Source: Streptomyces sp. WM6378
Lineage (GTDB): Bacteria; Actinomycetota; Actinomycetes; Streptomycetales; Streptomycetaceae
Reading direction: 5' to 3'
Assembly (NCBI RefSeq): GCF_001279695.1
Contig: NZ_LGDD01000081.1
Coordinates: forward strand, 1-64,000
DNA: 64,000 nt
Position numbers and translations under genes: made by a program. The stretch's first letter is position 1. Each line of letters opens with the position of its first letter. A model generated the notes under the pieces. That model was not told where the DNA came from. It worked only from the letters and a program-made list of their open reading frames with translations, and did not search any database. Shown in pieces: positions 1-13,527 of this stretch.

Positions 1-351
1 GGCGTGGACTTCGTGGAAGCCGCCGGTGCGGTAGTGGACGGCCCATGCCGAGGCCCTGAGGGGGGTCTCGGGGCCGGCGCCGGTGAGGGTGAGCGCGGCC
101 TGGCGGATCCAGGTGTTCAGGGAGTCGATGGCGGGGAGCTGCCAGGTCAGGATGTCGGGGGCCGACTTGCAGGCGGCGGCTACACCGAGGGAGCGCGAGG
201 TGTCGGTGTGCTCGCGGGTGAGGATCTCCTCGGCCAGGGCGTCGGTGTCGGGTCCCGTGGGGGTGGTGCGCTGGTAGATCCGAGTGGGCCACAGGTCCCG
301 GCGGGCGCCGAGGACCGTCCAGCTGCCGGCGGTCGGCGCGGGGGCGGTCAT
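1..351 (-). CDS. 2OG-Fe(II) oxygenase, N-terminal part (cut by window edge)
   Basis: The gene starts at 351 (ATG overlapping the TGA of the methyltransferase upstream on this strand) and runs off the left edge, leaving 117 residues. The visible part aligns by eye with the complete oxygenase at 5147-5761: both have an LW-x-T/P-x-x-Y opening (DLWPTRIYQR versus ALWGTPLYTR), a block ending in W-x-x-PAID-x-L (LTWQLPAIDSLNTWI versus LRWEHPAIDQLRRWI) and an A-W-A-V-x-Y-R block. In such enzymes the His/Asp iron ligands follow that last block, so they lie outside the window. It would hydroxylate a peptide or small substrate with iron and 2-oxoglutarate. It forms a coupled minus-strand operon with the methyltransferase and the 106-residue protein. 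Family assignment rests on the paralogue. Confidence 0.72.
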   Translation of the reverse strand, partial: MTAPAPTAGSWTVLGARRDLWPTRIYQRTTPTGPDTDALAEEILTREHTDTSRSLGVAAACKSAPDILTWQLPAIDSLNTWIRQAALTLTGAGPETPLRASAWAVHYRTGGFHEVHA

Positions 352-1103
352 GGGGTGCCTCCGGCGCAGGTGTAGACGGAGATGTGCTGGGTGGACGAAG
401 CGGTCAGGGGCGCCCGGTGCCAGTCGGCGTACCGGTGGGTGAGGTCGAGGCCGGCGGCCGTGGCCAGCAGGTCGAGTTCGGAGAGGTGGACGTAGCGCAT
501 GGCGACCGGCAGGAGCCGTATGCCGGTCTGGTCGAAGCGGATCTCCTGGAAGCTGATGGTCTGGGCGACGGGGTCGTGGGTGATCGCGGAAAGACTCAGG
601 TGGGTGTCGGCCAGGTCGCGGATGGCGAGCTGCTGGCGGCCGGCCAGGAGACCGGGGGCGCGCGGGATGGTCGCCTCGATGACGAAGTTGCCACCGGGCG
701 CGAGGGAACGGGCCACTTGCTGGAGGCAGGTGGCCTGGCGGGGCTGGGTCATCAGGAAGTAGAAGCTCGAGAAGGCGACGTAGACCAGCTCGTAGCGTTC
801 GCCACCGGTGTCGAGGTCGGCCATGTCCCCGGTGTGCGTGGTGACGGCCCGGTCGCCGCGGTGGCGGTGCAGCTCGTCGAGCATGGCCGGGGAGACGTCG
901 ACGCCGGTGACGGGGATGCCGCGGTCCGCGAGCGGAAGGGCGATGCGGCCGGTGCCGACCGCAAGTTCCAGCGCCCGGCCGCCGGTGCCGACCAGCGAGG
1001 CCAGGAAGTCGGCGGCCGGCCCAGGGTCGCGGCCGTGGTGCTCGTCGTTGTAGTGGGGCGCCCACTGGTCCCACAACTGCTGCTGTCGTCCTATCTCGTC
1101 CAC
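348..1103 (-). CDS. class I SAM-dependent methyltransferase
   Basis: A 251-residue Rossmann methyltransferase. Motif I is ELAVGTGRIALPLA (about residues 45-58), followed by the acidic post-I strand TGVDVSPAMLDEL and the motif II region DMADLDTGGERYELVYVAF. The N-terminal YNDEHHGRDPGPAADFL block is typical of the small-molecule Methyltransf_25 type. It lies 92 bp downstream of the 106-residue protein (1196-1516), and its stop overlaps the oxygenase start by ATGA, so the three genes should be co-transcribed. In this setting it probably methylates an intermediate or product of the YcaO-TfuA locus. The substrate cannot be read from the sequence. Confidence 0.85.
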   Translation of the reverse strand: MDEIGRQQQLWDQWAPHYNDEHHGRDPGPAADFLASLVGTGGRALELAVGTGRIALPLADRGIPVTGVDVSPAMLDELHRHRGDRAVTTHTGDMADLDTGGERYELVYVAFSSFYFLMTQPRQATCLQQVARSLAPGGNFVIEATIPRAPGLLAGRQQLAIRDLADTHLSLSAITHDPVAQTISFQEIRFDQTGIRLLPVAMRYVHLSELDLLATAAGLDLTHRYADWHRAPLTASSTQHISVYTCAGGTP

Positions 1104-1195
1104 ATGCCTCTCCCGTTCGCGCGCTCTCGTCTGGAGGCCGGGGCAGCGCCCGGGCCGGCGGCATGCGGCTGGCCCGGGCGCACCGCGGTGGCGGG

Positions 1196-1516
1196 TCAGC
1201 TGTCGGTGGTGGGCGCCTTGTCCGGGTCGAGGAAGATCTTGCTCGCCCGGACGGTGCCGGTGATCTCCTCGGTGCCGGTGAGCTCCTCGACGCCGCCGTC
1301 GGCTCCGGCGATGCCGCCGCGGGTCAGCTGGACGGTCACCTTGGCGCTGAGGGCCATGTCCTCCTGGACGGCGGCCTCGTGCATGGCGGCCGCGCCAACG
1401 AGGCCCTTGTTCACCAAGTCCATGACGTGGGCGACGTCGTCAGGGTTGAGCTCGATGCCGGCGATGTTCGCCCTCTCGGCGTCGGTGGTGTAGCGAGTCA
1501 CTGCGGGCTGGTCCAT
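1196..1516 (-). CDS. small acidic protein, candidate RiPP precursor or partner
   Basis: A 106-residue protein. The ATG at 1516 is preceded by an AGGGAGGCAGG ribosome site, which makes it a better start than the ORF's upstream ATG. The N-terminal two thirds (AERANIAGIELNPDDVAHVM, then MDLVNKGLVGAAAMHEAAVQ) reads as a helical leader. The C-terminal third is rich in Thr, Gly and Glu (TRGGIAGADGGVEELTGTEE) and ends in KAPTTDS. It has no Cys, so azoline formation on Cys is not possible, but YcaO-TfuA enzymes can thioamidate backbones and the HExxH and 2OG enzymes could hydroxylate side chains. It is divergent from the YcaO operon across a 226-bp promoter region and heads the minus-strand operon. 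I do not recognise a family. The precursor role is inferred only from size, position and lack of a catalytic domain. Confidence 0.6.
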   Translation of the reverse strand: MDQPAVTRYTTDAERANIAGIELNPDDVAHVMDLVNKGLVGAAAMHEAAVQEDMALSAKVTVQLTRGGIAGADGGVEELTGTEEITGTVRASKIFLDPDKAPTTDS

Positions 1517-1742
1517 TCCTGCCTCCCTGTCGGGGTGGGGTGGATCGCTGTGAACCGTAGGCCGCGCCCCGGGCAGCAGCACAGGCCCGCTTCCTCCAAC
1601 TACCGCCTCTTATACGCCCCTTTGCCGGGCTGACGTGCAATGGCACATCCCCGGTTGGACCTCCCGCCCCGCGCTCTGGGCGGGGGATGCTCGGCAGGTG
1701 CCCGGCCCGCCGGAGGGGCCGACCGAACCGGAAGGCGTGCTC

Positions 1743-2528
1743 ATGCCCGCAATCCGCACTGCTCCCCTGCCCCAGCTGATGGACAACGAAGCCGTCGAGC
1801 AGGTGCTCGGCGCCTTCTACCGGACCCCGCGCGCAGGCGGACTCGACCGCCTCGCGGGCGGCGGCGGCCCGTTCGGCTTCGACGTCACCGCCGCCTGCCG
1901 CGTCCACACCCTGGTCACCCTGTTCAGGTGCGACGGGATCGTCGAGAGCGGCTGCCACTTGGGGGACACCACCGAGTACCTCGCGCGCGCCTATCCTCAC
2001 CTGCCGGTGCGGGCCTGCGACCTGGATGGGCAGCGCGCCGGGTTCGCTCGGGCCCGCCTGGCCGGCCTCAGCAACGCGGTGGTCCGTCACGGCGACTCCG
2101 GCCGGCTGCTGCCCGCTCTCCTGTCCGGGCTGGAGCGGCCTCTGGTGTTCCTGGACGCCCACTGGGGCCCCGACTGGCCGCTGCGCGCCGAGCTGACCGC
2201 GCTGAAGGGCGTACGGGCGCTCGTCATCGTCGACGACTTCCGTATCGGTCACCCACGGTTCGGCTACGACACCTACGACGGAATGGTCTGCGGGCCGGAG
2301 CTCGTCGCGGACGCGCTGCCGGGGCTGGGGCGGATGTTCGTCGGCGACGTCGAGGCCGACTACCCGTTGCCGTGCCTGCAGACGGGCCGGCGCAGCGGCA
2401 GCGGGACTATCGTCCTCGGCCTCGACGACACCCCGCTCGCCGCGCACCCCTGGTTCGCCGAGGTTCCGTTGCGCCCCTGCCCGGTCCTGCCGTCGTGGGC
2501 CTCCGTTCCGGAGGTGAGGGGCCGGTGA
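1743..2528 (+). CDS. class I SAM-dependent methyltransferase-like protein
   Basis: A 261-residue protein; the ATG at 1743 follows a GGAAGG site. A nucleotide-binding core is visible: GIVESGCHLGDTTEYLAR (motif I-like, about residues 65-82), then VRACDLDGQRAGFARARL with the acidic D-L-D after strand 2, and RPLVFLDAHWGPDWPLRAEL, an F-L-D-A-H-W block found in some O-methyltransferases. It is the first gene of the plus-strand operon, and its TGA overlaps the GTG of the YcaO gene. A tailoring role on a peptide or a small side chain is likely. Motif I has ESGCHLG in place of the usual E-x-G-x-G-x-G, so activity is not certain. Confidence 0.72.
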   Translation: MPAIRTAPLPQLMDNEAVEQVLGAFYRTPRAGGLDRLAGGGGPFGFDVTAACRVHTLVTLFRCDGIVESGCHLGDTTEYLARAYPHLPVRACDLDGQRAGFARARLAGLSNAVVRHGDSGRLLPALLSGLERPLVFLDAHWGPDWPLRAELTALKGVRALVIVDDFRIGHPRFGYDTYDGMVCGPELVADALPGLGRMFVGDVEADYPLPCLQTGRRSGSGTIVLGLDDTPLAAHPWFAEVPLRPCPVLPSWASVPEVRGR

Positions 2529-3721
2529 CTGTGCTGAGCAGCAGCGTCCGCGAGGCCGCGGCGGCCGACAGCTGTGTGCGGGCGTGGCCGGTTGCGCGGC
2601 GCCTGGGCGTGAGCCGGGTCGCCGAGACCACTCACCTGGACCGCATCGGCATCCCGGTCTTCGCCGCGGTGCGTCCCGGCGCCGAGTTGGTGGTGGTGAC
2701 CGCCGGCAAGGGCCAGTACGCGGACGAGGCGAGGACGGGGGCGCTGATGGAGGCCGTCGAGCAGGCCGTCGCCGAGCGGTGCGCGGCCACCACGCCGCTG
2801 CGGTGGGCCTCGCCCCGTGCGATCGCCGGCGAGGGAAGGGTGCGGCTCGGCGCCTGGTGCCCGCGGCCGGAGATGAGGGTGGATGTCGACCAGGCGCTGC
2901 CCTGGATTACAGTCCCCCTCCTCGACGGGACGGGTGACCTTGCCGTTCCCGCCGAACTGGTGCTCACCCCGTGCCCGTCCGAGGCCACCACGTCCCTGTT
3001 CGGGTCCACGACCACCGGGCTCGCCTCCGGCAACAGCCATACGGAGGCCGTCCTCCACGGGCTGTGCGAGGTGCTGGAGCGCGACCTCACCTCGCTGATG
3101 GGCGTGGCCGACACCTCCGCCCTCATCGACCCCGACACCCTGCCGGCCGGGCCCGCCCATCTGTACGGACGGATCCGCGCGGCCGGACTCGGGGTGTGGC
3201 TGCGCTGGGTCCCGGCGTACGGCGGCCACTACATGGCCTGCCTGATCGACGATCCAGACCGGGCGCACCCGCTGTACTGCAACGGCGGCTACGGCTTCCA
3301 CCTGCTCCCCGAGATCGCTGCCGTCCGCGCGCTGACGGAGGCCGCGCAGTCCCGCCTGACCTACATCCAAGGCTCCCGGCACGACCTGCCCGACAGCTAC
3401 GCCGCCTTCGCCGCCATGGACCGCGGCGAGCGGGACGACTGGCGAAACCGCCTCCTTGCCCGGTACGGCGCACCCGCCCCAGCCGCGGCCTTCCCCACCG
3501 ACCGGGAGCGGCCCGGGCCCCCTTCCCCGCAGGGGCTGCTCGAGGAACTGCTCGCCGCGGTCGGGGCGGCGGGCCTTGGCCCGGTCGGGGTGCATACCTT
3601 CGCGCCGCTGGCCAAGCCCTTCCACGTCGTGCGCGTCGTGGTCGTCCGCGCCGAACACTTCACCGCCTACACCCGCCGGTTCGGCCGCCGTCTGGCCGCG
3701 CACGCCCGGGAGGGACTATGA
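2525..3721 (+). CDS. YcaO-domain protein (TfuA-associated)
   Basis: A 398-residue protein starting with GTG at 2525 inside the stop of the preceding gene. YcaO proteins use ATP to phosphorylate a peptide backbone amide, giving azolines, amidines or, with TfuA, thioamides. Visible hallmarks: STTTGLASGNSHTEAVLHG followed by LCEVLERDL (ATP/Mg-binding segment, about residues 160-188), GGYGFHLLPEIAAVRALTEA, and AQSRLTYIQGSRHDL (about 255-290). The C-terminus (PFHVVRVVVVRAEH) lacks the Pro-rich tail of azoline-forming YcaOs, which suits the TfuA-linked class. The gene overlaps tfuA by ATGA, so the pair is translationally coupled. No RRE or ocin-ThiF domain is fused, so substrate recognition must come from elsewhere. 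The family call is firm; the reaction is inferred. Confidence 0.93.
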   Translation: MTVLSSSVREAAAADSCVRAWPVARRLGVSRVAETTHLDRIGIPVFAAVRPGAELVVVTAGKGQYADEARTGALMEAVEQAVAERCAATTPLRWASPRAIAGEGRVRLGAWCPRPEMRVDVDQALPWITVPLLDGTGDLAVPAELVLTPCPSEATTSLFGSTTTGLASGNSHTEAVLHGLCEVLERDLTSLMGVADTSALIDPDTLPAGPAHLYGRIRAAGLGVWLRWVPAYGGHYMACLIDDPDRAHPLYCNGGYGFHLLPEIAAVRALTEAAQSRLTYIQGSRHDLPDSYAAFAAMDRGERDDWRNRLLARYGAPAPAAAFPTDRERPGPPSPQGLLEELLAAVGAAGLGPVGVHTFAPLAKPFHVVRVVVVRAEHFTAYTRRFGRRLAAHAREGL

Positions 3722-4470
3722 CCACACCACCACGCACGGGGGCACTGGAGTTGATGGTCGGGCCCACCGCGCACGATTTGCCCGCCCAGCTGCTGGCCCA
3801 GGAGGACATACGGGTCCACCCTCCGGCCCAGCGCGGCAGCATCGCCGCCCTCGTCGACAGCCTGCCGCCCGGCCGCATCGCGCTGGTCGACGGCCGGTAC
3901 GACGACGTGCCTGCCGTCGGCCACCGCGAGATCCTCGATGCTCTCGCGGCCGGATGGCAGGTGACTGGAGTCGGCTCCATCGGGGCGCTGCGCGCGGCCG
4001 AACTGGACGGCTTCGGGATGTCCGGCTACGGGCGCGTCTTCGCGCACCTGCTGGCCACCGCCGCCCCGGATGACGAGGTCGCCCTGCTGCACGGCCCCGC
4101 CCCCGACTACCGGCCGATCAGCGAGGCCCTCGTGGACCTGCGCGCCTTCGCCGAGCACCTGGTGCACGCCGGAGTGGTTGGCCAGGGTCACGCCCGTGCC
4201 GCGATCAACGCTCTGGCCGGCCGGTGGTTCGGCGACCGCTCGCTGCCCGCCTTCTTCGACGCCATCGCGAGCGCCGCCGGCCAGGGCTCGGCCGTCGCGG
4301 CCCGCACTCACCTGCCCCAGCTGCCCGCGATCCGTTGGAAGTCCGCTGACCTGCGCACCTACCTCACGGAGCGATCATGGACGCTGCAACCGTCATTACA
4401 CCGTTCGTGCCCACGTACTGCGGCGGCTGGCCCTTCCTCGATGACGGCTTCGACAGCCGGCGGCTGCTGA
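3718..4470 (+). CDS. TfuA-like protein
   Basis: A 250-residue protein with the TfuA core: VGPTAHDLPAQLLAQ near the N-terminus, VHPPAQRGSI, ALVDGRYDDVPAVGHREIL, and VGSIGALRAAELDGFGMSGY (about residues 80-100). TfuA partners YcaO in thioamide installation (known from McrA methylation-site systems in archaea and from thioamitides) and is thought to help deliver sulfur. It starts inside the stop codon of the ycaO gene. The reading frame runs 94 bp into the next gene; the last 30 or so residues (RSWTLQPSLH and onward) lack the composition of the rest, so the functional end is probably near the TYLTERSW segment. The overlap is either genuine or reflects a small lesion that removed an earlier stop. 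Confidence 0.9.
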   Translation: MTTPPRTGALELMVGPTAHDLPAQLLAQEDIRVHPPAQRGSIAALVDSLPPGRIALVDGRYDDVPAVGHREILDALAAGWQVTGVGSIGALRAAELDGFGMSGYGRVFAHLLATAAPDDEVALLHGPAPDYRPISEALVDLRAFAEHLVHAGVVGQGHARAAINALAGRWFGDRSLPAFFDAIASAAGQGSAVAARTHLPQLPAIRWKSADLRTYLTERSWTLQPSLHRSCPRTAAAGPSSMTASTAGGC

Positions 4471-5150
4471 CCGCTACGGCCGGCGTCCGGGTGGCCCGCC
4501 GCGACGGCACCCGCTCCTCCCCCGCGCCTCAGGACCTGACCGCCGTCCTGGCCCCCGCGGAAGCCGTGCGGATCCGGGCCCTGGACCTGCCCAAGGCCCT
4601 CCCCGGCGGCGCGCTCACCGCCGACCAGGCCCAGCAGGTCCACCAGACGGTGCGGCTCGTAGGCCGACTCGTCCCCCCGTGGGCCCCGCTGCTGTCCGCG
4701 CTGCCCTTGGTGTATCTGCCGATGCCGGCCGGGTGGGCCAGCATCAGCGCGTCCTGCTTCGCCTGGCCCCAGCACATCCTTCTCGCGACGGACGCGTTCG
4801 ACAGCCGGGCGATCCTCGCCGAGCAGGTCCTGCATGAGACGTTCCACCAATGGCTCTACCTGTGTGAGGAGCTCGCGGCCCTGCAGCACCCGGGCTGCGC
4901 CCACCGGATCACCCTGCCCTCCGGTACCGGCGGCCGCAGCCCCGCCGAGCTTCTCGGAGCCGCCCACGTCGCCTGCGGACTCGCCCGCCTGTGGCCGCTG
5001 CTCGACGTCCCCATGCCGGTACGCGACCAGCGCCTGGTACTCCTCTCCGCCTACCGGAGCGGCTGTCTGGCCCTGCTCGAAACCGCCCGGCCGTGCCTGA
5101 CCCAGCACGGCCACGCCCTCGCCGACCGGATCCTGGAGGTACCCGCATGA
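4377..5150 (+). CDS. HExxH-motif protein, putative peptide beta-hydroxylase
   Basis: A 257-residue protein containing EQVLHETFHQWLYLCEEL (HExxH at about residues 155-159). This motif in a protein of this size next to RiPP enzymes matches the HExxH peptide-modification family, now described as 2-oxoglutarate-dependent peptide beta-hydroxylases in which the HExxH histidines bind iron. It has no signal peptide or membrane segment, arguing against a secreted protease. The ATG at 4377 follows a GGAG and lies within the 3' end of tfuA; its own stop overlaps the next oxygenase by ATGA. With two 2OG oxygenases adjacent, the pathway would install several hydroxylations. A zinc peptidase removing a leader is the main alternative. 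Confidence 0.75.
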   Translation: MDAATVITPFVPTYCGGWPFLDDGFDSRRLLTATAGVRVARRDGTRSSPAPQDLTAVLAPAEAVRIRALDLPKALPGGALTADQAQQVHQTVRLVGRLVPPWAPLLSALPLVYLPMPAGWASISASCFAWPQHILLATDAFDSRAILAEQVLHETFHQWLYLCEELAALQHPGCAHRITLPSGTGGRSPAELLGAAHVACGLARLWPLLDVPMPVRDQRLVLLSAYRSGCLALLETARPCLTQHGHALADRILEVPA

Positions 5151-5761
5151 CCACCACCACGCCCCCGCCGACCAGCGAGGCTCTGTGGGGGACCCCGCTC
5201 TACACCCGAGCCGTCGACCCAGATCCCGCCGTCAACGAGGCGCTGCGTGAGCTGATTCTGGAGCGCACCCGCAGCGTGCCGAGTTCGGCCGTCGGCGTGC
5301 GGGACGCCGACAAGACGACCTCCGACGTGCTGCGCTGGGAGCACCCGGCCATCGACCAGCTTCGCCGATGGATCCTGGACGCCGCGTGTGCCATGAATGA
5401 CCACGTCGGCGCCGGGCGGAATGCGGCTGGCCAGGAGCAGGCGATGGTGGCCGAGGCATGGGCGGTCGTCTACCGTCCCGAGGGACTCCACCAGCTGCAC
5501 AGCCACCACGACGCTGCCTGGTCCGGCGTCTACTACGTCGCCACCGGCCGCATGACCGAGGGCACCGGCCTGTTGGAGTTCGTCGACCCCCGCCCGGGCG
5601 CCGCAGCCCGGGAACCCGCCCGCCTGCCCCTGTACAGGCTCACCCCGACCCCGGGAATGCTGGTCGCCTTCCCTGCCTGGCTGCGGCACTGGGTCACCCC
5701 ATACCAAGGCGATGCCCAGCGCATCGTCATCGCCTTCAACATCGCCTTCCGGCACGCCTGA
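5147..5761 (+). CDS. 2OG-Fe(II) oxygenase
   Basis: A 204-residue protein of the TIGR02466-like 2OG-Fe(II) oxygenase type. The double-stranded beta-helix elements are readable: AWAVVYRPEGLHQLHSHHD followed by AAWSGVYYV (candidate His/Asp iron ligands, about residues 105-125), GTGLLEFVDPRPGA, and FPAWLRHWVTPYQGDAQRIV, in which H and R are the usual distal iron ligand and 2OG-binding Arg. It ends with the common IAFNIAF strand. It overlaps the HExxH gene by ATGA. It is a paralogue of the edge gene at 1-351, which fits two hydroxylations by related enzymes. The substrate is presumably the RiPP peptide. Confidence 0.85.
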   Translation: MTTTTPPPTSEALWGTPLYTRAVDPDPAVNEALRELILERTRSVPSSAVGVRDADKTTSDVLRWEHPAIDQLRRWILDAACAMNDHVGAGRNAAGQEQAMVAEAWAVVYRPEGLHQLHSHHDAAWSGVYYVATGRMTEGTGLLEFVDPRPGAAAREPARLPLYRLTPTPGMLVAFPAWLRHWVTPYQGDAQRIVIAFNIAFRHA

Positions 5762-5794
5762 TGGACGGGCCGGTTCTGAGCAAGGAGCACCCCC

Positions 5795-6238
5795 GTGATC
5801 ACCTCCCTGTGGGAATCCCCCGTCCACACCGCACAGTTGGCCAGCGACGTACTTGCCCGAGTCGCCGCCGATTCCGGACTGCTGCCCAGCCTGCTTCCCA
5901 CCGGGCACCCGGGCCGTGACCTGACCTGGACCAGCCGGACCGAGCAGTGGAAAGGCGGATTCCACGCCGGTCTCCGCCACGGCACCGGAGCCTGGTGCGC
6001 GCTGATCGTCCTCGACGCCCGGACCAGCCACGCAGAAACCCTGTCCGGAGCGGTGGTGCTCCACGATCCACGAGCCGGCGCCGCCAACGTGGGGCTCCCC
6101 GGGCTGCCCTGGGGCCGTCCCCTGACCCTGACCACCCGCCCCGGCCTGCTCGCGGTCGTCCCCGGCTGGCTGGGCTGGCAGGTCGCGCCCGTCCGCGCCG
6201 ACGACGAGCGGACGGTGCTGACCGCCGACTCCGCATAG
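5795..6238 (+). CDS. degenerate oxygenase paralogue (pseudo-enzyme)
   Basis: A 147-residue protein; GTG at 5795 after AAGGAGC. It is shorter than, but aligns with, the oxygenase just upstream: an LWESPVHTAQL opening, VVLHDPRAGAANVGLPGLP against LEFVDPRPGAAAREPARLP, and LLAVVPGWLGWQVAPVRAD against MLVAFPAWLRHWVTPYQGD. The distal His of the active enzyme (LRHWV) is LGWQV here, and the H-x-H/D block before the first strand is not recognisable (FHAGLRHGTGAWCALIV). The fold therefore seems kept while iron-binding residues are lost. It could be a substrate-binding or regulatory partner of the two active oxygenases. It is last in the operon, with a 33-bp gap. Confidence 0.65.
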   Translation: MITSLWESPVHTAQLASDVLARVAADSGLLPSLLPTGHPGRDLTWTSRTEQWKGGFHAGLRHGTGAWCALIVLDARTSHAETLSGAVVLHDPRAGAANVGLPGLPWGRPLTLTTRPGLLAVVPGWLGWQVAPVRADDERTVLTADSA

Positions 6239-6252
6239 CCCGACGGCCCCGG

Positions 6253-7053
6253 TCACGCCACCAGTTCCCGCAGGTCGGCGGCGGCCTGCCACAGGTCCTC
6301 GAATCGGGAGGCCGCACGCCCGTTGTGATCCGGAGCCAGACAGGGCCTGCCATCGTCCCGCTCCCGGGCCACGAGCATGAGCCAGCCGCCCCCCAGGACA
6401 GCCACAGCAAACCCCGACGGTGCCAGGGCAGTTCGAAGCGCCGGCAGCACCCGTACCTCCACCGGCGCCTGAAGAAGCCGCCGGTACTGCTCCCGCATCA
6501 CCCCCGGCCCGACCACACCGGGGGCAAGTACCGTCTCACCCAGCAAGATCCGCACCGTTGCACGACCGGTCTGGAAGAAGCGCTGCTGGCGCAGTCCCAG
6601 CAGCCACAGGCGCCGGTCGGCCTCGACGCTGCTCACGGGCCCCAGCAGCTCACGGGCGTAGTGGCGGGTCCGCACCACCGCCGGGAGCACCTGCGGCATG
6701 TACACCGCGCGCAGCCCGGCGGCCTCCACCTCCAGATAGTCGCGGGAACTCGCATCGGCCACATCGGCGAAGGAGTGGTAGACGCTTCGCCCCAGAGCCT
6801 GCCGGGACCACTCCAAGAGCCGGTCCCGGTCCCGGCCGTGGATTCCGTAGAAGTCCACGAGACGGACAACGTCATCCCCCGCCGCCCGATGACGTCCCCG
6901 TTCGATCCGCGACAGCTTGGACGTGCTCACGAACAGGGCACCTGCGACCTGCTCCAGAGTCAGCCCCCTGACCATCCTGGCCAGTTCGAACTGCCGCCCC
7001 AGGAGGAGACGGGCGACCGTCGCACTCGGTCGGTCATCGTGGAGCACGGACAT
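6253..7053 (-). CDS. XRE-family regulator with DUF5753 sensor domain
   Basis: A 266-residue protein; the ATG at 7053 has a GGAGG site, so the longer ORF start is not needed. An N-terminal helix-turn-helix (LARMVRGLTLEQVAGALFVS, then TSKLSRIERGRHRA) is followed by the long DUF5753 domain typical of streptomycete regulators (QALGRSVYHSFADVADASSR, then the LRAVYMPQVLPAVVRTRHYA segment). These regulators usually act as ligand-responsive repressors or activators of adjacent genes. It converges on the RiPP operon (15 bp between stops) and is divergent from the next regulator across a 200-bp region with two inverted repeats. Target genes are unknown. Confidence 0.85.
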   Translation of the reverse strand: MSVLHDDRPSATVARLLLGRQFELARMVRGLTLEQVAGALFVSTSKLSRIERGRHRAAGDDVVRLVDFYGIHGRDRDRLLEWSRQALGRSVYHSFADVADASSRDYLEVEAAGLRAVYMPQVLPAVVRTRHYARELLGPVSSVEADRRLWLLGLRQQRFFQTGRATVRILLGETVLAPGVVGPGVMREQYRRLLQAPVEVRVLPALRTALAPSGFAVAVLGGGWLMLVARERDDGRPCLAPDHNGRAASRFEDLWQAAADLRELVA

Positions 7054-7108
7054 GGCGCCTCCGTCCCCTCGGCGGCAGCCCCCGGCCCGACGGCCAAGTG
7101 CTGTCCTG

Positions 7109-7253: not shown

Positions 7254-8231
7254 ATGGACACACAGGCTGAAACGGTCACCGTCGAGCAGGCCATCGCGAA
7301 CTTTTCCGCCGAAGTCGCCTACTGGCGCGAGGTGCGCGGGATGTCGAAGAAGACACTGGCCGCGGCCATGGGCTACACGCCTTCCTACGTCAGCCACATG
7401 GAAGCGGGGCGAACCAAGCCGAGCGAAGACTTCGCCCGGATCGCCGACGAGCAGCTGAACGCGGGCAAGGCGATCTGCAATCGCTGGTGCGAGTACGAAG
7501 CGGCCAAGGCCCGCGCCCACTCCCCCGCGGTCCCGCCGCCGCCCCGGCGGGCCGAGCAGCCGTACGCCACCGGCACCGCGCTTGTCGTCGAGCACGACGC
7601 GGCCCGCCTGGACTACGACGGGTCCATGTACCGGCTTACCATGCGCCGACTGCTGCGCAACACCGGCAACGACCCCATCACGCGGTATCTGATCCGCATC
7701 AGCGTCGACCGCTATCCCGGTGAGCCGGAGCGGTCCAACGAGCACTACCGGGCACACCCCCTCACCTGGGCCGAGCTGAACCTGACCGCGTGCAGCTGCG
7801 GCGAGGAAATGCTGTGGGAGGCCAAGCACGATCGCGACGCGTTCAAGGAGGTCTGGCTGCTGTTCGAAAACTCCGAGGGCCGCTTCCCTCTCTACCCGGG
7901 CGAGTCCGTATGGATCGAGTACGCCTACTCCGTCTCCGACTACAAGTGGGGCCGCTGGTTCCAGCGCGCTGTCCGGCTGCCCACGGAACACCTCGAAGTC
8001 CAACTCGACTTCCCCCTGGCACTCGACCCGGTGGTGTGGGGCACCGAGACGTCGATGACCTCCGAGGCCGCGCCGCTGCGGACAGCGCCGCACCGCCACG
8101 ACGATGAAGACGAAGGCCGGCGGACCTTCGCCTGGTCGACGTCCACGCCTGCCCTGCATGCCCGATACCGATTGGCCTGGAAGTTCCGGGCACGGCCCGA
8201 ACCCAGCACGAACCACGAGGAGTTGGGATGA
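7254..8231 (+). CDS. XRE-family DNA-binding protein
   Basis: A 325-residue protein; ATG at 7254 (GCGAGG upstream) is preferred over an in-frame TTG three bases earlier. The N-terminal helix-turn-helix is clear (YWREVRGMSKKTLAAAMGY, then TPSYVSHMEAGRTKPSEDF, about residues 22-60). The remaining 230 residues (SMYRLTMRRLLRNTGNDPIT, ESVWIEYAYSVSDYKWGRW) form a beta-rich domain common in streptomycete XRE proteins and of unknown ligand. Its stop overlaps the deformylase start by ATGA, so regulator and deformylase are co-translated. Confidence 0.82.
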   Translation: MDTQAETVTVEQAIANFSAEVAYWREVRGMSKKTLAAAMGYTPSYVSHMEAGRTKPSEDFARIADEQLNAGKAICNRWCEYEAAKARAHSPAVPPPPRRAEQPYATGTALVVEHDAARLDYDGSMYRLTMRRLLRNTGNDPITRYLIRISVDRYPGEPERSNEHYRAHPLTWAELNLTACSCGEEMLWEAKHDRDAFKEVWLLFENSEGRFPLYPGESVWIEYAYSVSDYKWGRWFQRAVRLPTEHLEVQLDFPLALDPVVWGTETSMTSEAAPLRTAPHRHDDEDEGRRTFAWSTSTPALHARYRLAWKFRARPEPSTNHEELG

Positions 8232-8800
8232 CCGAGGTGCGGCCCAGTCAGCGCATGCGAGAACTCGGAGTCGTCCAGCACGGCGCCCCAGCCCTGGACA
8301 CCCCCTCAACGGCCCTCGACCTGCCCGCCGAAAGGGCCACCGCCGAACTCGTCATCGACCAGCTCACCGAGGCGATGGATCGCATCGCCCGCGCCCACGA
8401 CTTCTCCGGCAAAGGCATGGGGCTGGCCGCACCGCAGATCAACATCGCCCACGCCGCCGCCGCGGTACGGCCCGCCGCTCCTGGCGCCGAGACGATCGTT
8501 CTCCTCAACCCCCGCATCACCGCGTCCTCCGATGAGATTGACGAGCAGTACGAAGGCTGCCTCAGCTTCTTCGACGTCCGCGGCATGGTGCCCCGCCCTC
8601 TGCGGATCACCGTCGAAACCACCGCGCTGGATGGCAGCAAGGTCACCACCGTGTACGAGCGCGGGCTCGCCCGCCTCGTCCAGCACGAGGTCGACCATCT
8701 TGAGGGGCATCTGTACATTGCCCGCATGCGTCCGGGAGTCGACCCGATCCCTGTCGAGGAGTACCGGCAAACCGGCCGCGCCTGGGCCTACGACCAGTAA
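8228..8800 (+). CDS. def: peptide deformylase
   Basis: A 190-residue peptide deformylase, the metal enzyme that removes the formyl group from nascent proteins. All three signature motifs are present in order: GMGLAAPQI (motif 1, about residue 63), EGCLSF (motif 2, Cys metal ligand) and VQHEVDHLEGHLYI (motif 3, HExxH, about residue 155). It is translationally coupled to the XRE regulator. Streptomycetes carry several def genes; one coupled to a regulator outside a ribosomal context is accessory. It may simply be a regulated paralogue, or it may protect against a deformylase-directed metabolite. Confidence 0.95.
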   Translation: MTEVRPSQRMRELGVVQHGAPALDTPSTALDLPAERATAELVIDQLTEAMDRIARAHDFSGKGMGLAAPQINIAHAAAAVRPAAPGAETIVLLNPRITASSDEIDEQYEGCLSFFDVRGMVPRPLRITVETTALDGSKVTTVYERGLARLVQHEVDHLEGHLYIARMRPGVDPIPVEEYRQTGRAWAYDQ

Positions 8801-8858
8801 CACCTGAACCGGCTCCGGGGCGGAAGGCCACCAGGGCCCTCCGGCTCCTGCGGCCGCC

Positions 8859-9641
8859 TCATGCAGCCCGTTCCACAGAGGGTTCATCCCGCAGCTCTAG
8901 CTCAGCAACACCCTTCAACCATGCATGAGTTCGAGAATCGAACTCTGCTTGATCACGGTACGTTTCTTCGGCACTCCACTGCCCGTCGTGGACGCGTCGG
9001 TGATACACAACATCGGGCAGCAGTTCCCCGGCAGCGCGTGCGCACACGCCAAGCACGAAGCTGTAGTCCTCCCCTTTGTGGAGACCGCCGTGTCCAACTG
9101 CACGCGCAAGGGCCGTGTCGGTGAGCAGCATGCAGTGCCCCAGGGGCGGCTTACTGGCGAGCGGGTCCGGCCAGTACGACAACACCTCACCGGCCGCGAG
9201 CGGCCCGACGGGGGTCGGGCACATCCACGTCGACAGGTTCCCGGAGTGGGGGTCCCAGTCGGCCGACCGGCCAGCGACCCAGCGCAGTCCGGCGGCGACG
9301 GCATGCTCGTTCCTGATTGCCAAGCTCAGCGGGGTGGCGAGCCGGTCGTCATCGTCTGCGAAGGCACAACGGGGAGCGTCGACATAGTTCAAGGCGGTGT
9401 TTCGGGCGGGCGCCGGCCCGGGCCCGGGCCTGGCGATCACTTTGACCCGGGGGTCCCTCGTGATCGCCCGCGGTATGAGATCGAGGTTGGCCTGGGGGCC
9501 GTTGGGCGCGACGATCCACTGCCAGGTGACCTCCTCCTGGGCGCGGAGGCTCTCGTAGAGCTCCTCGAGGAATGGCAGGCGTGTGGGGTTCAAGCCCGTC
9601 GGGGTGATGACGGCGACGGCAGGCTGGGCAGGGCTGGGCAT
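8859..9641 (-). CDS. family 2 glycosyltransferase
   Basis: A 260-residue GT-A-fold enzyme; the ATG at 9641 follows a GGAGAAG site. Visible features: VAVITPTGLNPTRLPFLEEL (N-terminal nucleotide-binding strand), VKVIARPGPGPAPARNTAL (R-N-x-A-L segment that packs the sugar nucleotide) and CAFADDDDRLATPLSLAI, whose D-D-D-D is the DXD-type metal motif (about residue 105). It is soluble with no membrane helix. It is the last gene of a minus-strand run starting at the MFS exporter. The acceptor is unknown; a peptide or small-molecule glycoside is plausible. Confidence 0.82.
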   Translation of the reverse strand: MPSPAQPAVAVITPTGLNPTRLPFLEELYESLRAQEEVTWQWIVAPNGPQANLDLIPRAITRDPRVKVIARPGPGPAPARNTALNYVDAPRCAFADDDDRLATPLSLAIRNEHAVAAGLRWVAGRSADWDPHSGNLSTWMCPTPVGPLAAGEVLSYWPDPLASKPPLGHCMLLTDTALARAVGHGGLHKGEDYSFVLGVCARAAGELLPDVVYHRRVHDGQWSAEETYRDQAEFDSRTHAWLKGVAELELRDEPSVERAA

Positions 9642-9667
9642 GGATCTTCTCCGTGGGCGAGTGGGCA

Positions 9668-10042
9668 CTACGCGGCGCGGCGCGGCACGTGGGATGAGGT
9701 GGCTCCGGGCCTTTGAGACCACGGTCCGATGACGTGGCGGGCGGGCAGGTGAATCAGGTGGAGGCCGGGGGGCAGTGATGCCTGGAAGTCCTGGAGTTCG
9801 GTGCGGCTGGGGGGCGCGGTGGGTGCTCGGGCGGCTGCGGCTTCGAGGATCGCAGGCGCTTCGGCTTCCTCGCTCGGTGGGCCGGTCCAGCGCAGGACGA
9901 GCATTCCGTGGTGGTCGTCAGTCTGCTGCTCGGGTGGGCCGGGGTGGACGGGCTGGTACCACCGGTGGACTTGGTCGAGGACGACGATCGGGTAGATCGC
10001 TCCGATGCCGTAGTGGGCGGCCTGAACTTCGTGCTGGGTCAA
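9668..10042 (-). CDS. hypothetical protein
   Basis: A 124-residue protein with no family I recognise. It begins MTQHEVQAAHYGIGAIYPIV and has VHRWYQPVHPGPPEQQTDDH and GLHLIHLPARHVIGPWSQRP segments, giving it many His, Trp and Pro residues. It is cytosolic, with no signal or membrane segment. It lies 26 bp upstream of the glycosyltransferase and 92 bp downstream of the lipoprotein on the same strand. Coding potential is supported by strong G/C third positions and by its place in the run. Confidence 0.6.
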   Translation of the reverse strand: MTQHEVQAAHYGIGAIYPIVVLDQVHRWYQPVHPGPPEQQTDDHHGMLVLRWTGPPSEEAEAPAILEAAAARAPTAPPSRTELQDFQASLPPGLHLIHLPARHVIGPWSQRPGATSSHVPRRAA

Positions 10043-10134
10043 CTCGTCTGTCCTTCATGGGTGTTGGTTCCGCTGCTGGTGTGGATGGGGCACGTCGGCG
10101 CCGTGTCGGCGGGGCGCTGGGCCGGGTGGTCAGG

Positions 10135-10860
10135 TCAGTGGGAGGGGGCTTCGACGACGTTGGTGGGCGTCGTGGCGCCGACGGGCTTGCCGAAGTCCGA
10201 GTAGGTGATGTCACCCGCCTCGGTGTTGTCGGAGCTGTCCACGGACAGGAGGTTGGAGGTGCCATCGGCCGAGACGAGGTAAGTCATCGGCTTGCCGCCG
10301 GACACGAGCTCTACGGGGACGGCTCGGTGGCCTCCCGTCTCCCGGATCGCCTTCTTGGTCATGGTGGTCGAGGCGGTGTAGGGGTGGGTGAACTGCTCCT
10401 GGTGGCAGTAGCTGGCCAGGGCCTTCATCAGGGCGTTATCGCGGGTGCCGTGGATCCACTGCGCGTCGGGGACTTGGTTATCGAGTTCCTTGGCCAGGGT
10501 CTGGTCGAGCTTGGCGAAGATGTCGCTGCCCTTGACGACGATCTCGAAGGAGCCTCGCTGCTTCTTGTCGACCGTGCCGGTGCACTCGGTGGCGGACAGC
10601 CGCAGGTCGGTGCCGGCGTCCGAGCGGTCCATGCGTTCGCGGAACGACCCTGCCTCGGCGTTCGTTCGCATCGCCTTGTTGTAGATGTCGGCGGCGGGCA
10701 GCTCTTCGATGCCGTTCGCCTTGGCCGGGGGTGCCATTGGAGCCTGCTCGGTCGACTTGGACGTGCCGGCGGAGTCGTTGTTGCACGCCGTTAGGGTCAG
10801 TAGGACGGCCGTGCAGGCGAGAGCGGCGAGCGGCAGGCGACGGGCAGTGGAGTTGTTCAT
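10135..10860 (-). CDS. secreted lipoprotein
   Basis: A 241-residue lipoprotein. The signal peptide (RRLPLAALACTAVLLTLTAC) ends in a lipobox L-T-A-C with the lipidated Cys at about residue 26, followed by a Ser/Thr/Pro linker. The mature domain (DIYNKAMRTNAEAGSFRERM, SFEIVVKGSDIFAKLDQTLA, then VSGGKPMTYLVSADG and ITYSDFGKPV) resembles streptomycete LppX/LprG-like lipoproteins that fold as an open beta barrel holding a hydrophobic ligand. It sits between EIIC and the small protein in the minus-strand run. A role in export or capture of a lipid-like product is inferred from family and location only. Confidence 0.8.
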   Translation of the reverse strand: MNNSTARRLPLAALACTAVLLTLTACNNDSAGTSKSTEQAPMAPPAKANGIEELPAADIYNKAMRTNAEAGSFRERMDRSDAGTDLRLSATECTGTVDKKQRGSFEIVVKGSDIFAKLDQTLAKELDNQVPDAQWIHGTRDNALMKALASYCHQEQFTHPYTASTTMTKKAIRETGGHRAVPVELVSGGKPMTYLVSADGTSNLLSVDSSDNTEAGDITYSDFGKPVGATTPTNVVEAPSH

Positions 10861-10907
10861 CGTGGTTGTCTCCAGGTGCGGGATGGCTGGGTAGGGGTGG
10901 GGACGAG

Positions 10908-12167
10908 TCAGGATCGGGGACGCGAAGGGCTCTCGGTGCGGGTGTCATCGGGTGGGGCGGGGGTGCGGCCGGGGGTGCGCAGGTTGAAGCGCGTGATCGC
11001 GAATCGGAAGATCATGTAGTAGAGGGCGCCGTAGGCGACGGCGAGGGGCAGCAGGAGCAACGGGCGTTGGGAGATTGAGTAGTTGAGGACGTAGTCGATC
11101 GCTCCGGCGCTGAAGACGAAGCCCGCATGGATGTCGAGGAGGTTGACGATCGCGAGGCTGAGTCCGGTGAGCACCGCGTGTACCAGGTAGAGCGGGAAAG
11201 CCACGAAAACGAACGTCAACTCGATGGGCTCCGAGACCCCTGCGAGGCAGCAAATTGAGCCCGCGGGCAGTAGCAGGGCGCCGACACGGCGGCGGTGCTC
11301 GGGCAGTGCGCTGCGCCACATCGCCAGGGCGGCGGCGGGCAGGCCGGCCATGTAGACAGGGAAGAAGCCGCCCATGAACACGCCGGCTTCCGGACTGTGT
11401 CTCTCGATGAAGCAGGGGACGTCACCTTTCACGCCGCCCCCGCAGTCGCCGGTCAGGTACCAGGCCACGGCGTTGAGAGGCTGGTGCATGCCGATGGGGC
11501 CCAGGAGGCGGTTGAGGAACCCGAAGATTCCCCCGCCGAGGACCGCGTGGTCCGCGACGGCGGCCGCGGAGGCGGTGAGTGCCCGTTCCACGGTGGGGTA
11601 GGCGAGCCCGAGCAGGGTGCCGACGGTGAGGGCGGCGAGGGCGACGATCCCGTAGGCGGCGAACGGGGGAATGCGGCTCCGTCCGGTGGTGACGCGCTTC
11701 CAGATGGCCATGGCCAGCAGGGCGCCGACGATCCCGGCGAGCGCCCCGTAGGGCCATCGGGCGGGCGGGGCGTCGAGTTGGTCGGCTGGCAGCGGGTTGA
11801 GGACGAGGACGACCTTGGCGAGGACCAGGTAGGAGATGAGGCAGGCCAGCACGGGGCCGGCAGCGTCCTTGGCGCGGTTGAGGCCCAGGGCGATTCCGAC
11901 GGCGAACAGGGCCGGGAGGTTGTCGAGGACCGCCGAGCCCGCTCCGGAGATGACCGCGGCCGCGGTGTGCAGGTGCTGGTAGCGGCCCAGGAGGTCGTCC
12001 TGTCCGAGGCGTAGGAGCAGGCCGGCGGCGGGCATCGCTGCGATCGGCAGGGCGAGGCCCTGGCCCATGCGGCGCAGCCGCGCCGTGAGCGTGGTCGGGT
12101 CGGCCGGTGCGGCGTTGTCGCCGCGGTGCGGGGCGGTCTTGGTTCGGGTGAACGGCAGGGTCACCAC
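10908..12167 (-). CDS. PTS EIIC component, N-acetylglucosamine/glucose type
   Basis: A 419-residue membrane protein with the glucose/GlcNAc-family EIIC layout: LALPIAAMPAAGLLLRLGQ at the N-terminus, LPALFAVGIALGLNRAKDAA, FFPVYMAGLPAAALAMW and the substrate-site motif CCLAGVSEPIELTFVFVAFP. There is no fused EIIB or EIIA, as in streptomycete NagE proteins, so it would need NagF-like EIIB and Crr EIIA encoded elsewhere. About ten hydrophobic segments are visible. Its place between an ATP-grasp ligase and a lipoprotein is unusual for a sugar permease and may mean supply of amino sugar to a pathway, or a chance insertion. Confidence 0.88.
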   Translation of the reverse strand: MVTLPFTRTKTAPHRGDNAAPADPTTLTARLRRMGQGLALPIAAMPAAGLLLRLGQDDLLGRYQHLHTAAAVISGAGSAVLDNLPALFAVGIALGLNRAKDAAGPVLACLISYLVLAKVVLVLNPLPADQLDAPPARWPYGALAGIVGALLAMAIWKRVTTGRSRIPPFAAYGIVALAALTVGTLLGLAYPTVERALTASAAAVADHAVLGGGIFGFLNRLLGPIGMHQPLNAVAWYLTGDCGGGVKGDVPCFIERHSPEAGVFMGGFFPVYMAGLPAAALAMWRSALPEHRRRVGALLLPAGSICCLAGVSEPIELTFVFVAFPLYLVHAVLTGLSLAIVNLLDIHAGFVFSAGAIDYVLNYSISQRPLLLLPLAVAYGALYYMIFRFAITRFNLRTPGRTPAPPDDTRTESPSRPRS

Positions 12168-12264
12168 GTTGTCGGCCTCCGGTCGTCGTACTGCGGGTGG
12201 AGGTGCCGTGGTGCGGTGGCGGCCAGGGCGCGGGGCATGGTGGTGGCTCCTGAGGCTGGTCGGG

Positions 12265-13527
12265 TCAGCGCACGCAGGCGGTGGTGCGGACGGGTGAGGT
12301 GATGTGCACGGTGAGGCTCTGCATCACCTGGTCGAGGCGTGCCTGGCAGGCGTCGGGGGTGGGGCCGCTGACGATGGCGTGGGCGAGGCGGTCGTTGATG
12401 GTGCTGTGCGGGCCGGCGACTACGACGTCGCCCGACTGCCGTGTCCAGAAGAGGCGTTCGAGCCAGTCGGCTGTGAACGCGCGGGCGTGGGCGGCCTGGA
12501 CGGGGCCGGTGACGGTCGGGTAGCGGAACTCGATCGCTGCGCTCTGCGCGACGGACCCGGCAAGGTCGGGGGTGTCGCCGGTGGCCAGGGCGGCCTGGGC
12601 CTGCGGGAGGGAGATGCCGGTCGCGAGGTGGACGAGGAGCGGAATGAGGTCGCCGCCGAGGCGGGCGTTGATCTCGATGATGCGCGGGCCCTGGCGGGTG
12701 AGGCGTACCTCGACGTGCAGGATCCCGGTGGTGATGCCGACCGCTTTGATGGCGGAGGTGACGACGTGGTGGAGGGCCGGGTCGTCGAGGAGCGGGTCGG
12801 TGGCGTCGACGAGGTGGCCGGTCTCCAGGAACGCCGGCTCGGAGCCGAGCCGTTTGCGGGTGATCGCGGCGATGTGTACGTCGCCCCGGCCGCGGACGGC
12901 GCACTCGACGCTGATCTCGGGGCCGTGGAGGTACTCCTCGACCAGGACGCCGGCGACCGCACTCGCCTCCAAGCCGATCAGGGTCGCGGCGGCGGCGTTG
13001 TCGTAGTGGGCGCTGACGTGCTCGCGGTAGTCAGCGCGATGGACGCCGGCGCTGCCGCCCAGGCCGCGGGGCTTGATGACGACGGGGTAGCCGATGGCGG
13101 CGGCGGCCGCGACTGCTTCGTCGGCGCTGTTGACGAGGACGGATCGGGCGGAGGGGACGCCGTGTTCGGCGAGGAGTTGGCGGGTGCGGGCCTTGTCGCG
13201 GCAGGCGGCGACGGCGTCCGGGTCGGCGCCGGGCAGACCCAGTTCCTTGGCCAGGCGGGCGACGAGCTCGACGTGGTGCTCAAGGTAGGTGGTGACGCCG
13301 GTGATGGGCTGGCGCAGGGCGATCTCGGTGACCGCGCGGTGGACGGCTTGGTGGTCGTGCAGGTCGACGGTGACCGTGTCGGTGACGTAGGGGCGGGTCC
13401 AGGCGGGCACCTGGTCGTCGAGGAGGACGAGGTGGTGGCGGGCGGCGAACTCCTGCAGGAGAAAGGAGCGGTAGGCGCGGTCGCCGGCGCCCAGGACGAG
13501 CAGGACGGGCCGGGTGTGGTGGTTCAT
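12265..13527 (-). CDS. ATP-grasp carboxylate-amine ligase
   Basis: A 420-residue ATP-grasp enzyme. The N-terminal Rossmann-like part (VLLVLGAGDRAYRSFLLQEF) is followed by the central domain (LLAEHGVPSARSVLVNSADE) and the ATP-grasp lysine strand AIGYPVVIKPRGLGGSAGVH. VLVEEYLHGPEISVECAVRG and PRIIEINARLGGDLIPLLVH contribute the Mg/ATP-binding Glu and Asn. This is the arrangement of dipeptide/amino-acid ligases such as BacD and carnosine synthase, which join amino acids through an acyl phosphate. It is followed 12 bp upstream on the strand by an MFS gene, a common ligase-exporter pairing. Substrates are unknown. Confidence 0.88.
   Translation of the reverse strand: MNHHTRPVLLVLGAGDRAYRSFLLQEFAARHHLVLLDDQVPAWTRPYVTDTVTVDLHDHQAVHRAVTEIALRQPITGVTTYLEHHVELVARLAKELGLPGADPDAVAACRDKARTRQLLAEHGVPSARSVLVNSADEAVAAAAAIGYPVVIKPRGLGGSAGVHRADYREHVSAHYDNAAAATLIGLEASAVAGVLVEEYLHGPEISVECAVRGRGDVHIAAITRKRLGSEPAFLETGHLVDATDPLLDDPALHHVVTSAIKAVGITTGILHVEVRLTRQGPRIIEINARLGGDLIPLLVHLATGISLPQAQAALATGDTPDLAGSVAQSAAIEFRYPTVTGPVQAAHARAFTADWLERLFWTRQSGDVVVAGPHSTINDRLAHAIVSGPTPDACQARLDQVMQSLTVHITSPVRTTACVR

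Follow-up and report, generated by a model that had tools for sequence, protein, structure and literature searches.

Gene content and recurrence of the locus

The window analysed here is the first 64,000 nucleotides of contig NZ_LGDD01000081.1 (C81) of the soil bacterium Streptomyces sp. WM6378, window base 1 being base 1 of the contig, in an assembly (GCF_001279695.1) of 9.49 Mb and 361 contigs. It opens with a gene set in which YcaO and TfuA are joined with aKG-HExxH-type and 2-oxoglutarate (2OG)-dependent peptide hydroxylases, methyltransferases, an oxygenase-fold protein without the iron triad (P6, or P0006), and P0001, a 106-aa candidate precursor or substrate protein. The existence and conservation of this set are confirmed, and it has more members than first described; its substrate has likely been identified, and a chemistry for it is proposed below.

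The plus-strand genes start with MTu (1743–2528), a methyltransferase-like protein with sub-cut-off Pfam matches only and strong conservation, followed by YcaO (2525–3721; PF02624, 164 bits), TfuA (3718–4470; PF07812, 110 bits), the aKG-HExxH-type peptide hydroxylase (4377–5150; TIGR04267, 53.2 bits against a cut-off of 40), and the 2OG-Fe(II) oxygenase OG2 (5147–5761; PF13759, 72.8 bits; TIGR02466, 72.9 bits against a cut-off of 62.5). From MTu to OG2 each gene overlaps the next (2528/2525, 3721/3718, 4470/4377, and 5150/5147), and P6 (5795–6238), recognized by alignment and predicted structure, starts 33 bp after OG2. On the minus strand, the P0001 gene (1196–1516) sits as a separate gene between MTu and MTd (348–1103; PF13649, 61 bits), an S-adenosylmethionine (SAM) methyltransferase with similarity to the daptide type. 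MTd overlaps the gene of a second 2OG oxygenase, OG1 (1–351), which is limited to its N-terminal 117 residues since the contig starts at window base 1. An earlier sequence-only reading had described the YcaO, TfuA, HExxH, and 2OG oxygenase genes as translationally coupled, flanked by two methyltransferases and by a second oxygenase on the other strand. The overlaps and the Pfam and NCBIfam matches place these genes in one operon and the flanking genes are present, the second oxygenase being truncated by the contig end. The list of genes was incomplete, as it missed the conserved 106-aa gene, the reading frame at 5795–6238 is a triad-less oxygenase relative, and the set continues off the contig, on contig C222.

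The same gene order, from a regulator through P6a, OG2, HExxH, TfuA, and YcaO to MTu, is shared by Streptomyces violascens (locus L012) and genome G284 (L016), where it continues divergently with P0001, MTd, OG1, and P6b, with a major facilitator superfamily (MFS) gene facing them. A reduced set in genome G252 (L017) consists of the precursor (48% identity), MTu, YcaO, TfuA, HExxH, OG2, P6, and two MFS genes, with an M3 peptidase gene adjoining the precursor; neither MTd nor OG1 was found within this 19.9-kb stretch. The overlap of TfuA with HExxH is 94 bp in the window and in both full clusters, and 85 bp in G252. Assuming that locus tags rise by 5 from one gene to the next, AB0H07_40350/40380/40395 and ADK76_10790/10820/10835 fit the full order, and QQM39_45365/45395 fit the reduced one. 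The alternative that the genes lie together by chance and share no pathway could be argued from the gene set being known here from sequence alone, but the conservation of order and co-occurrence across several genomes makes this extremely improbable. The recurrence of the order in L012, L016, and, reduced, L017 confirms that the arrangement is not due to chance.

The sequence-only reading had made its peptide pathway depend on the co-occurrence of the HExxH and oxygenase genes with YcaO-TfuA elsewhere, and on a conserved small open reading frame (ORF). Among 392 genomes of the genus, HExxH relatives occur in five, and P0001 in three of those same five. The HExxH gene adjoins YcaO-TfuA in all five loci, while OG2, MTu, P6, and P0001 are also present in three, so that the co-occurrence holds throughout for HExxH and for the oxygenase in 3/5 loci, the other two being without OG2. 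P0001 provides the conserved small ORF, and a peptide-tailoring set is well supported. In samples of the class, the P0001 profile matched 2/394 genomes and the HExxH profile 2/384, in the same two genomes, with the second P0001 match being weak (32 bits). Contigs of 5 kb or more carry 45 P0001-family proteins, and for 13 of these the contig is exactly as long as that of a P6 protein among 120 listed of 273 P6 matches, as compared to a mean of 0.03 and a maximum of 1 with shifted sizes; the remaining 32 have no contig-size match among the same 120.

The missing end of the cluster has a probable location in the source genome. A P6b fragment (L021:8631-8897; 87% identity to S. violascens) and an MFS gene (98%) lie at the end of contig C222, where the S. 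violascens order predicts the P6b fragment. Because of this match, the cluster appears to be split between C222 and C81 by an assembly gap of ~0.55 kb, with S. violascens as the guide.

Downstream of P6, a helix-turn-helix/DUF5753 gene (6253–7071, minus strand) is the likely regulator of the set, and its homologues are found in the same place in S. violascens (93% identity to L012:4396-5274) and G284 (51% to L016:6978-7826). A peptide deformylase-like gene (8228–8800), below model cut-offs and 97% identical in S. violascens, adjoins the set. Farther away, ~6 kb outside the conserved set, there is an ATP-grasp-like gene (12265–13527) whose best NCBIfam match is far below cut-off.

The candidate substrate P0001

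The third-position GC of P0001 is 0.91, using the longer open frame, and a GGGAGG site precedes its ATG in the window as well as in S. violascens and G284. Ratios of nonsynonymous to synonymous substitution rates (dN/dS) of 0.165 against S. violascens and 0.338 against G284 show that purifying selection acts on P0001. Protein search returns 16 relatives and profile search 81, with Streptomyces, Micromonospora, and Polymorphospora as the named sources. An alignment of 83 rows, made up of the 81 database proteins together with P0001 and the G252 peptide, has seven positions that never vary, Arg8, Glu14, Gly38, Val50, Gln51, Arg66, and Lys93. The densest conserved block spans positions 38–56 and contains the stretch AAxxH[ED]xAVQ[DE][ND][MF][AG]L (42–56). 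His46 is present in 77/83 rows and is replaced with alanine in four, serine in one, and asparagine in one. P0001 has no cysteine, which occurs in only 4/83 rows, and most family members are 101–110 aa long, within a full range of 101–180 aa. An AlphaFold2 model predicts a helix (25–45) and a hairpin (54–70/76–91) with a pLDDT of 83 and a pTM of 0.63, two of the five models being poor, and a search of the PDB with this structure gave no significant match.

A P0001-like peptide is also found in G460, from another family of the class, where the genes for HExxH, OG2, P6, a 69-aa peptide, and MTu follow one another on an 11.3-kb contig (L024). Only positions 22–67 of the P0001 profile are matched by this peptide, which ends shortly afterwards; it keeps MQDNFAL, with Met replacing Val50, and the C-terminal hairpin half is missing. 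There is no match to TfuA anywhere in the G460 genome, and its one YcaO is on another contig. Since G460 retains HExxH, OG2, a methyltransferase, and a small peptide in the absence of TfuA, YcaO-TfuA is not the obligatory core. Thioamidation looks optional in this cluster type, with the TfuA-less evidence coming from one genome whose contig ends ~2.9 kb past MTu. The lack of the hairpin half in the TfuA-less peptide suggests that this half of the precursor and YcaO-TfuA go together.

The conserved, compact nature of P0001 leaves room for a different role. P0001 could be an accessory or recognition protein, similar to a recognition element (RRE) of ribosomally synthesized and post-translationally modified peptides (RiPPs) or to a chaperone, with the actual substrate encoded elsewhere, as a different peptide or a protein of the host; other YcaO enzymes act in this way on McrA or on a ribosomal protein. 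Conservation over its whole length, the predicted compact helix-hairpin, and the absence of an evident double-glycine or other named cleavage site in P0001 are in line with such a role. On the other hand, the G460 peptide is shortened to 69 aa yet retains MQDNFAL, which is more substrate-like than helper-like. P0001 is the only small gene conserved out to G252, as nine other small ORFs of the locus had no match in the G252 or G460 clusters. A sister type of cluster, described below, also has a 46-aa peptide in a comparable place. We therefore consider an accessory role unlikely and treat P0001 as the candidate substrate.

The sister type has been identified in G116 (L018) and G207 (L019), where YcaO-TfuA-HExxH and an MFS gene are divergent from a TldD/TldE-like pair (the families were scanned in G116, whose pair has 67% and 69% identity to that of G207). 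No match to P0001, P6, OG2, or MTu was found in these two stretches. A 46-aa peptide, 43/46 identical between the two, is encoded just upstream of YcaO and on the same strand (L018:11661-11798, minus; L019:7068-7205, plus) and is a candidate precursor of the sister pathway. Its tail, VAHEANNLNEA, has HEA in common with MHEAAVQED of P0001, which is only a lead.

Tailoring enzymes and the oxygenase relative P6

In YcaO, the TIGR03266 model for McrA thioamidation scores 166 bits (cut-off 365) versus 82 bits for SagD (cut-off 219), both below cut-off, and the best solved relative is MJ1094. The closeness of the McrA-type model could suggest that P0001 is modified without being cut, as a whole folded protein with fixed modifications and a cellular role, like McrA, instead of a secreted peptide. 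The fixed sequence and length of the family would agree with this, but the MFS proteins beside the cluster in L012, L016, and L017 and at the end of C222, as well as the peptidase beside the G252 cluster, do not, and we find an uncut P0001 quite improbable. Two more YcaO and two more TfuA genes are present in tandem on contig C325 of the source genome (L020:7844-12476), at 7844–9127, 9124–10482, 10344–11714, and 11715–12476.

TfuA has a serine in [GC]S[IM]GA[LI]RA and a lysine in K[ST]xDL, both kept in 6/6 aligned relatives. A Ser-Lys pair has been reported for TfuA (PMC13185837) and may correspond to the Ser and Lys of these motifs. The HExxH residues of the peptide hydroxylase are likewise invariant in 6/6 aligned relatives. 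All OG2 proteins of the five clusters (window, S. violascens, G284, G252, and G460) have an intact HxD..H triad, as has OG1 in S. violascens and G284; this was read from six aligned OG1/OG2 rows, two of them identical, and from the OG2 of L017 and L024. The OG1 fragment alone has no family match in the Pfam and NCBIfam scans; its alignment with OG2 covers 107 aa at 39%, and it is 79% identical to the full-length S. violascens protein (L012:11163-11765), in which the triad is kept. MTd scores 82 bits with a daptide-type model, under its cut-off of 175, and is 87% identical in L012 and 73% in L016. At an E-value of 0.01 it has no match in L017, L024, or L018, and L019 has only a weak 32% match far off. 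MTu is found in all five P0001-type clusters analysed (window, L012, L016, L017, and L024).

P6 has no Pfam match, although 2/7 relatives match PF13759 at E-values up to 0.1, and it aligns with OG2 at 32% over 93 aa. The best PDB matches of its predicted structure (pLDDT 85) are 2rg4 and 3bvc (E-values 3e-5 and 7e-5; TM scores 0.65 and 0.60), the same two entries matched by the OG2 sequence. P6 is thus predicted to have the double-stranded beta-helix fold of the oxygenases. In a single MAFFT alignment of P0006 and 120 listed of 273 matches, the HxD..H triad is intact in none of the 121 sequences, while the motif PGLPWG is present in 119 of the 120. By sequence, P6 belongs to an oxygenase lineage that has lost its iron ligands, and because the lineage is kept without the metal site, P6 is best read as a binding partner. 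This defines a conserved family of triad-less oxygenases with its own motif.

P6 is 99% identical to its S. violascens counterpart with a synonymous difference of 0.04, which is lower than that of the neighbouring OG2 (0.17) and HExxH (0.23) genes; a recent recombination around 5795–6238 is therefore possible.

Proposed pathway and comparison with known systems

From gene content, conservation, co-occurrence, motifs, and the loss of the triad in P6, all observed directly, we infer that P0001 is the substrate and propose its chemistry, sites, trimming, and export. The locus is probably a RiPP-type cluster that modifies P0001 by P6-assisted hydroxylation, methylation, and thioamidation, with export and trimming of the product. 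The N-terminal part of P0001, expressed from its own divergent gene, would serve as the recognition segment (Arg8, Glu14, and the predicted helix 25–45), and the stretch 42–56 would be the main target, around its VQ[DE][ND] segment. P6 would hold the substrate as a partner while the HExxH enzyme and OG2 hydroxylate Gln, Asp, and Asn side chains in this stretch. This target fits the hydroxylation of Asp, His, and consecutive Gln residues reported for aKG-HExxH enzymes (PMC12636437), since residues of these types occur in the P0001 stretch. MTu would add a methyl group, and YcaO-TfuA would install a backbone thioamide in dependence on the C-terminal hairpin half that is absent from the TfuA-less relative. 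MTd and OG1 would methylate and hydroxylate His46, respectively, as their distribution over the five clusters follows this residue: the window, L012, and L016 have both enzymes and His46, whereas position 46 is Ala in G252 and Cys in G460, both without these enzymes. The product would be exported by the MFS protein on C222 and trimmed by a host protease or, in G252, by the adjacent M3 peptidase.

Several observations weigh against this proposal. Conservation in the P0001 family extends over the full length and leaves no variable core, unlike in many RiPP precursors. P0001 may be a stably folded protein, given the helix and hairpin predicted by AlphaFold2 with middling confidence. The G460 peptide, a weak match to the profile (32 bits), has Met in place of Val50, a residue that does not vary in the 83 rows, and the G460 HExxH protein scores 39.8 bits, just under the TIGR04267 cut-off of 40. 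No clear protease, RRE, or exporter gene was found on the window contig. As the three clusters with His46, MTd, and OG1 are closely related, the His46 link is a lead and not a proof.

A broader reading is that the locus represents a new class of YcaO-TfuA-linked modification. A nearly fixed protein of ~105 aa without a variable core would be hydroxylated and methylated around a VQ[DE][ND] segment, and also thioamidated in clusters that have TfuA, with a dedicated triad-less oxygenase as its substrate partner. The outcome would be a fixed cofactor-like product or modified protein and not a variable antibiotic, and YcaO-TfuA plus the hairpin half would be a removable module. This we put forward only tentatively, as somewhat doubtful. 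A precursor of fixed sequence, if true, would be out of the ordinary among such pathways and would suggest that its function is conserved. The missing substrate candidate is now supplied, making the pathway directly testable, and the natural variants (G460 without TfuA; G252 without His46, MTd, and OG1) suggest a pairing of enzymes and sites.

The characterized YcaO-TfuA RiPPs comprise thioviridamide-like compounds, thiovarsolins, thioamidated thiopeptides, and chimeric lanthipeptides, to which the std product has been added in a May 2026 preprint (PMC13174530). The sequence-only reading knew of no described RiPP pathway with the present combination, and no paper describing YcaO-TfuA with aKG-HExxH and a 2OG oxygenase was found in the titles, abstracts, and text passages covered from the open-access literature. 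The P0001-type family may nevertheless be an unnamed entry among the 613 TfuA gene-cluster families catalogued by Malit et al. (PMC8120280).

The std cluster of Streptomyces thermodiastaticus resembles the present locus in combining YcaO-TfuA and a small precursor with an MFS permease and an iron-dependent enzyme that hydroxylates together with a partner protein (PMC13174530). Its hydroxylation is carried out by a multinuclear non-heme iron-dependent oxidative enzyme (MNIO) with an RRE-containing partner, and it has a peptidase-carbamoyltransferase. In the present locus, the hydroxylating enzymes are of the HExxH and 2OG types, accompanied by methyltransferases and a triad-less oxygenase, and the precursor candidate is 106 aa long and free of Cys. 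The aKG-HExxH hydroxylases PflC/PosC and the radical SAM-fused enzyme belong to the same family as the HExxH protein here but, in the text available, are paired with a radical SAM domain or with MNIO-nitroreductase and not with YcaO-TfuA (PMC12636437). Thiovarsolins share YcaO-TfuA, an oxidative enzyme, an MFS gene, and Streptomyces as the source, and have their own repeating precursor and heme-oxygenase-like, ATP-grasp, and amidinotransferase genes (PMC6511847). A thiovarsolin assignment was rejected: these genes are not among the scanned cluster genes, no repeat is seen in P0001 by eye, and the ATP-grasp-like gene lies outside the set.

The products of thioamitides, the thioviridamide-like compounds, carry methylated and hydroxylated histidine, as proposed here for His46, and their precursors need cysteine for the AviCys-type ring. 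P0001 is Cys-free and matches no thioamitide precursor model, and no decarboxylase or lyase-type gene is present among the scanned genes, which led to the rejection of this assignment as well. Thioamitides, which are named in PMC13174530 and PMC13185837, do have YcaO-TfuA in common with the present locus. While the modification of peptides by YcaO-TfuA is already known, its joining with aKG-HExxH and 2OG peptide hydroxylases appears to be new.

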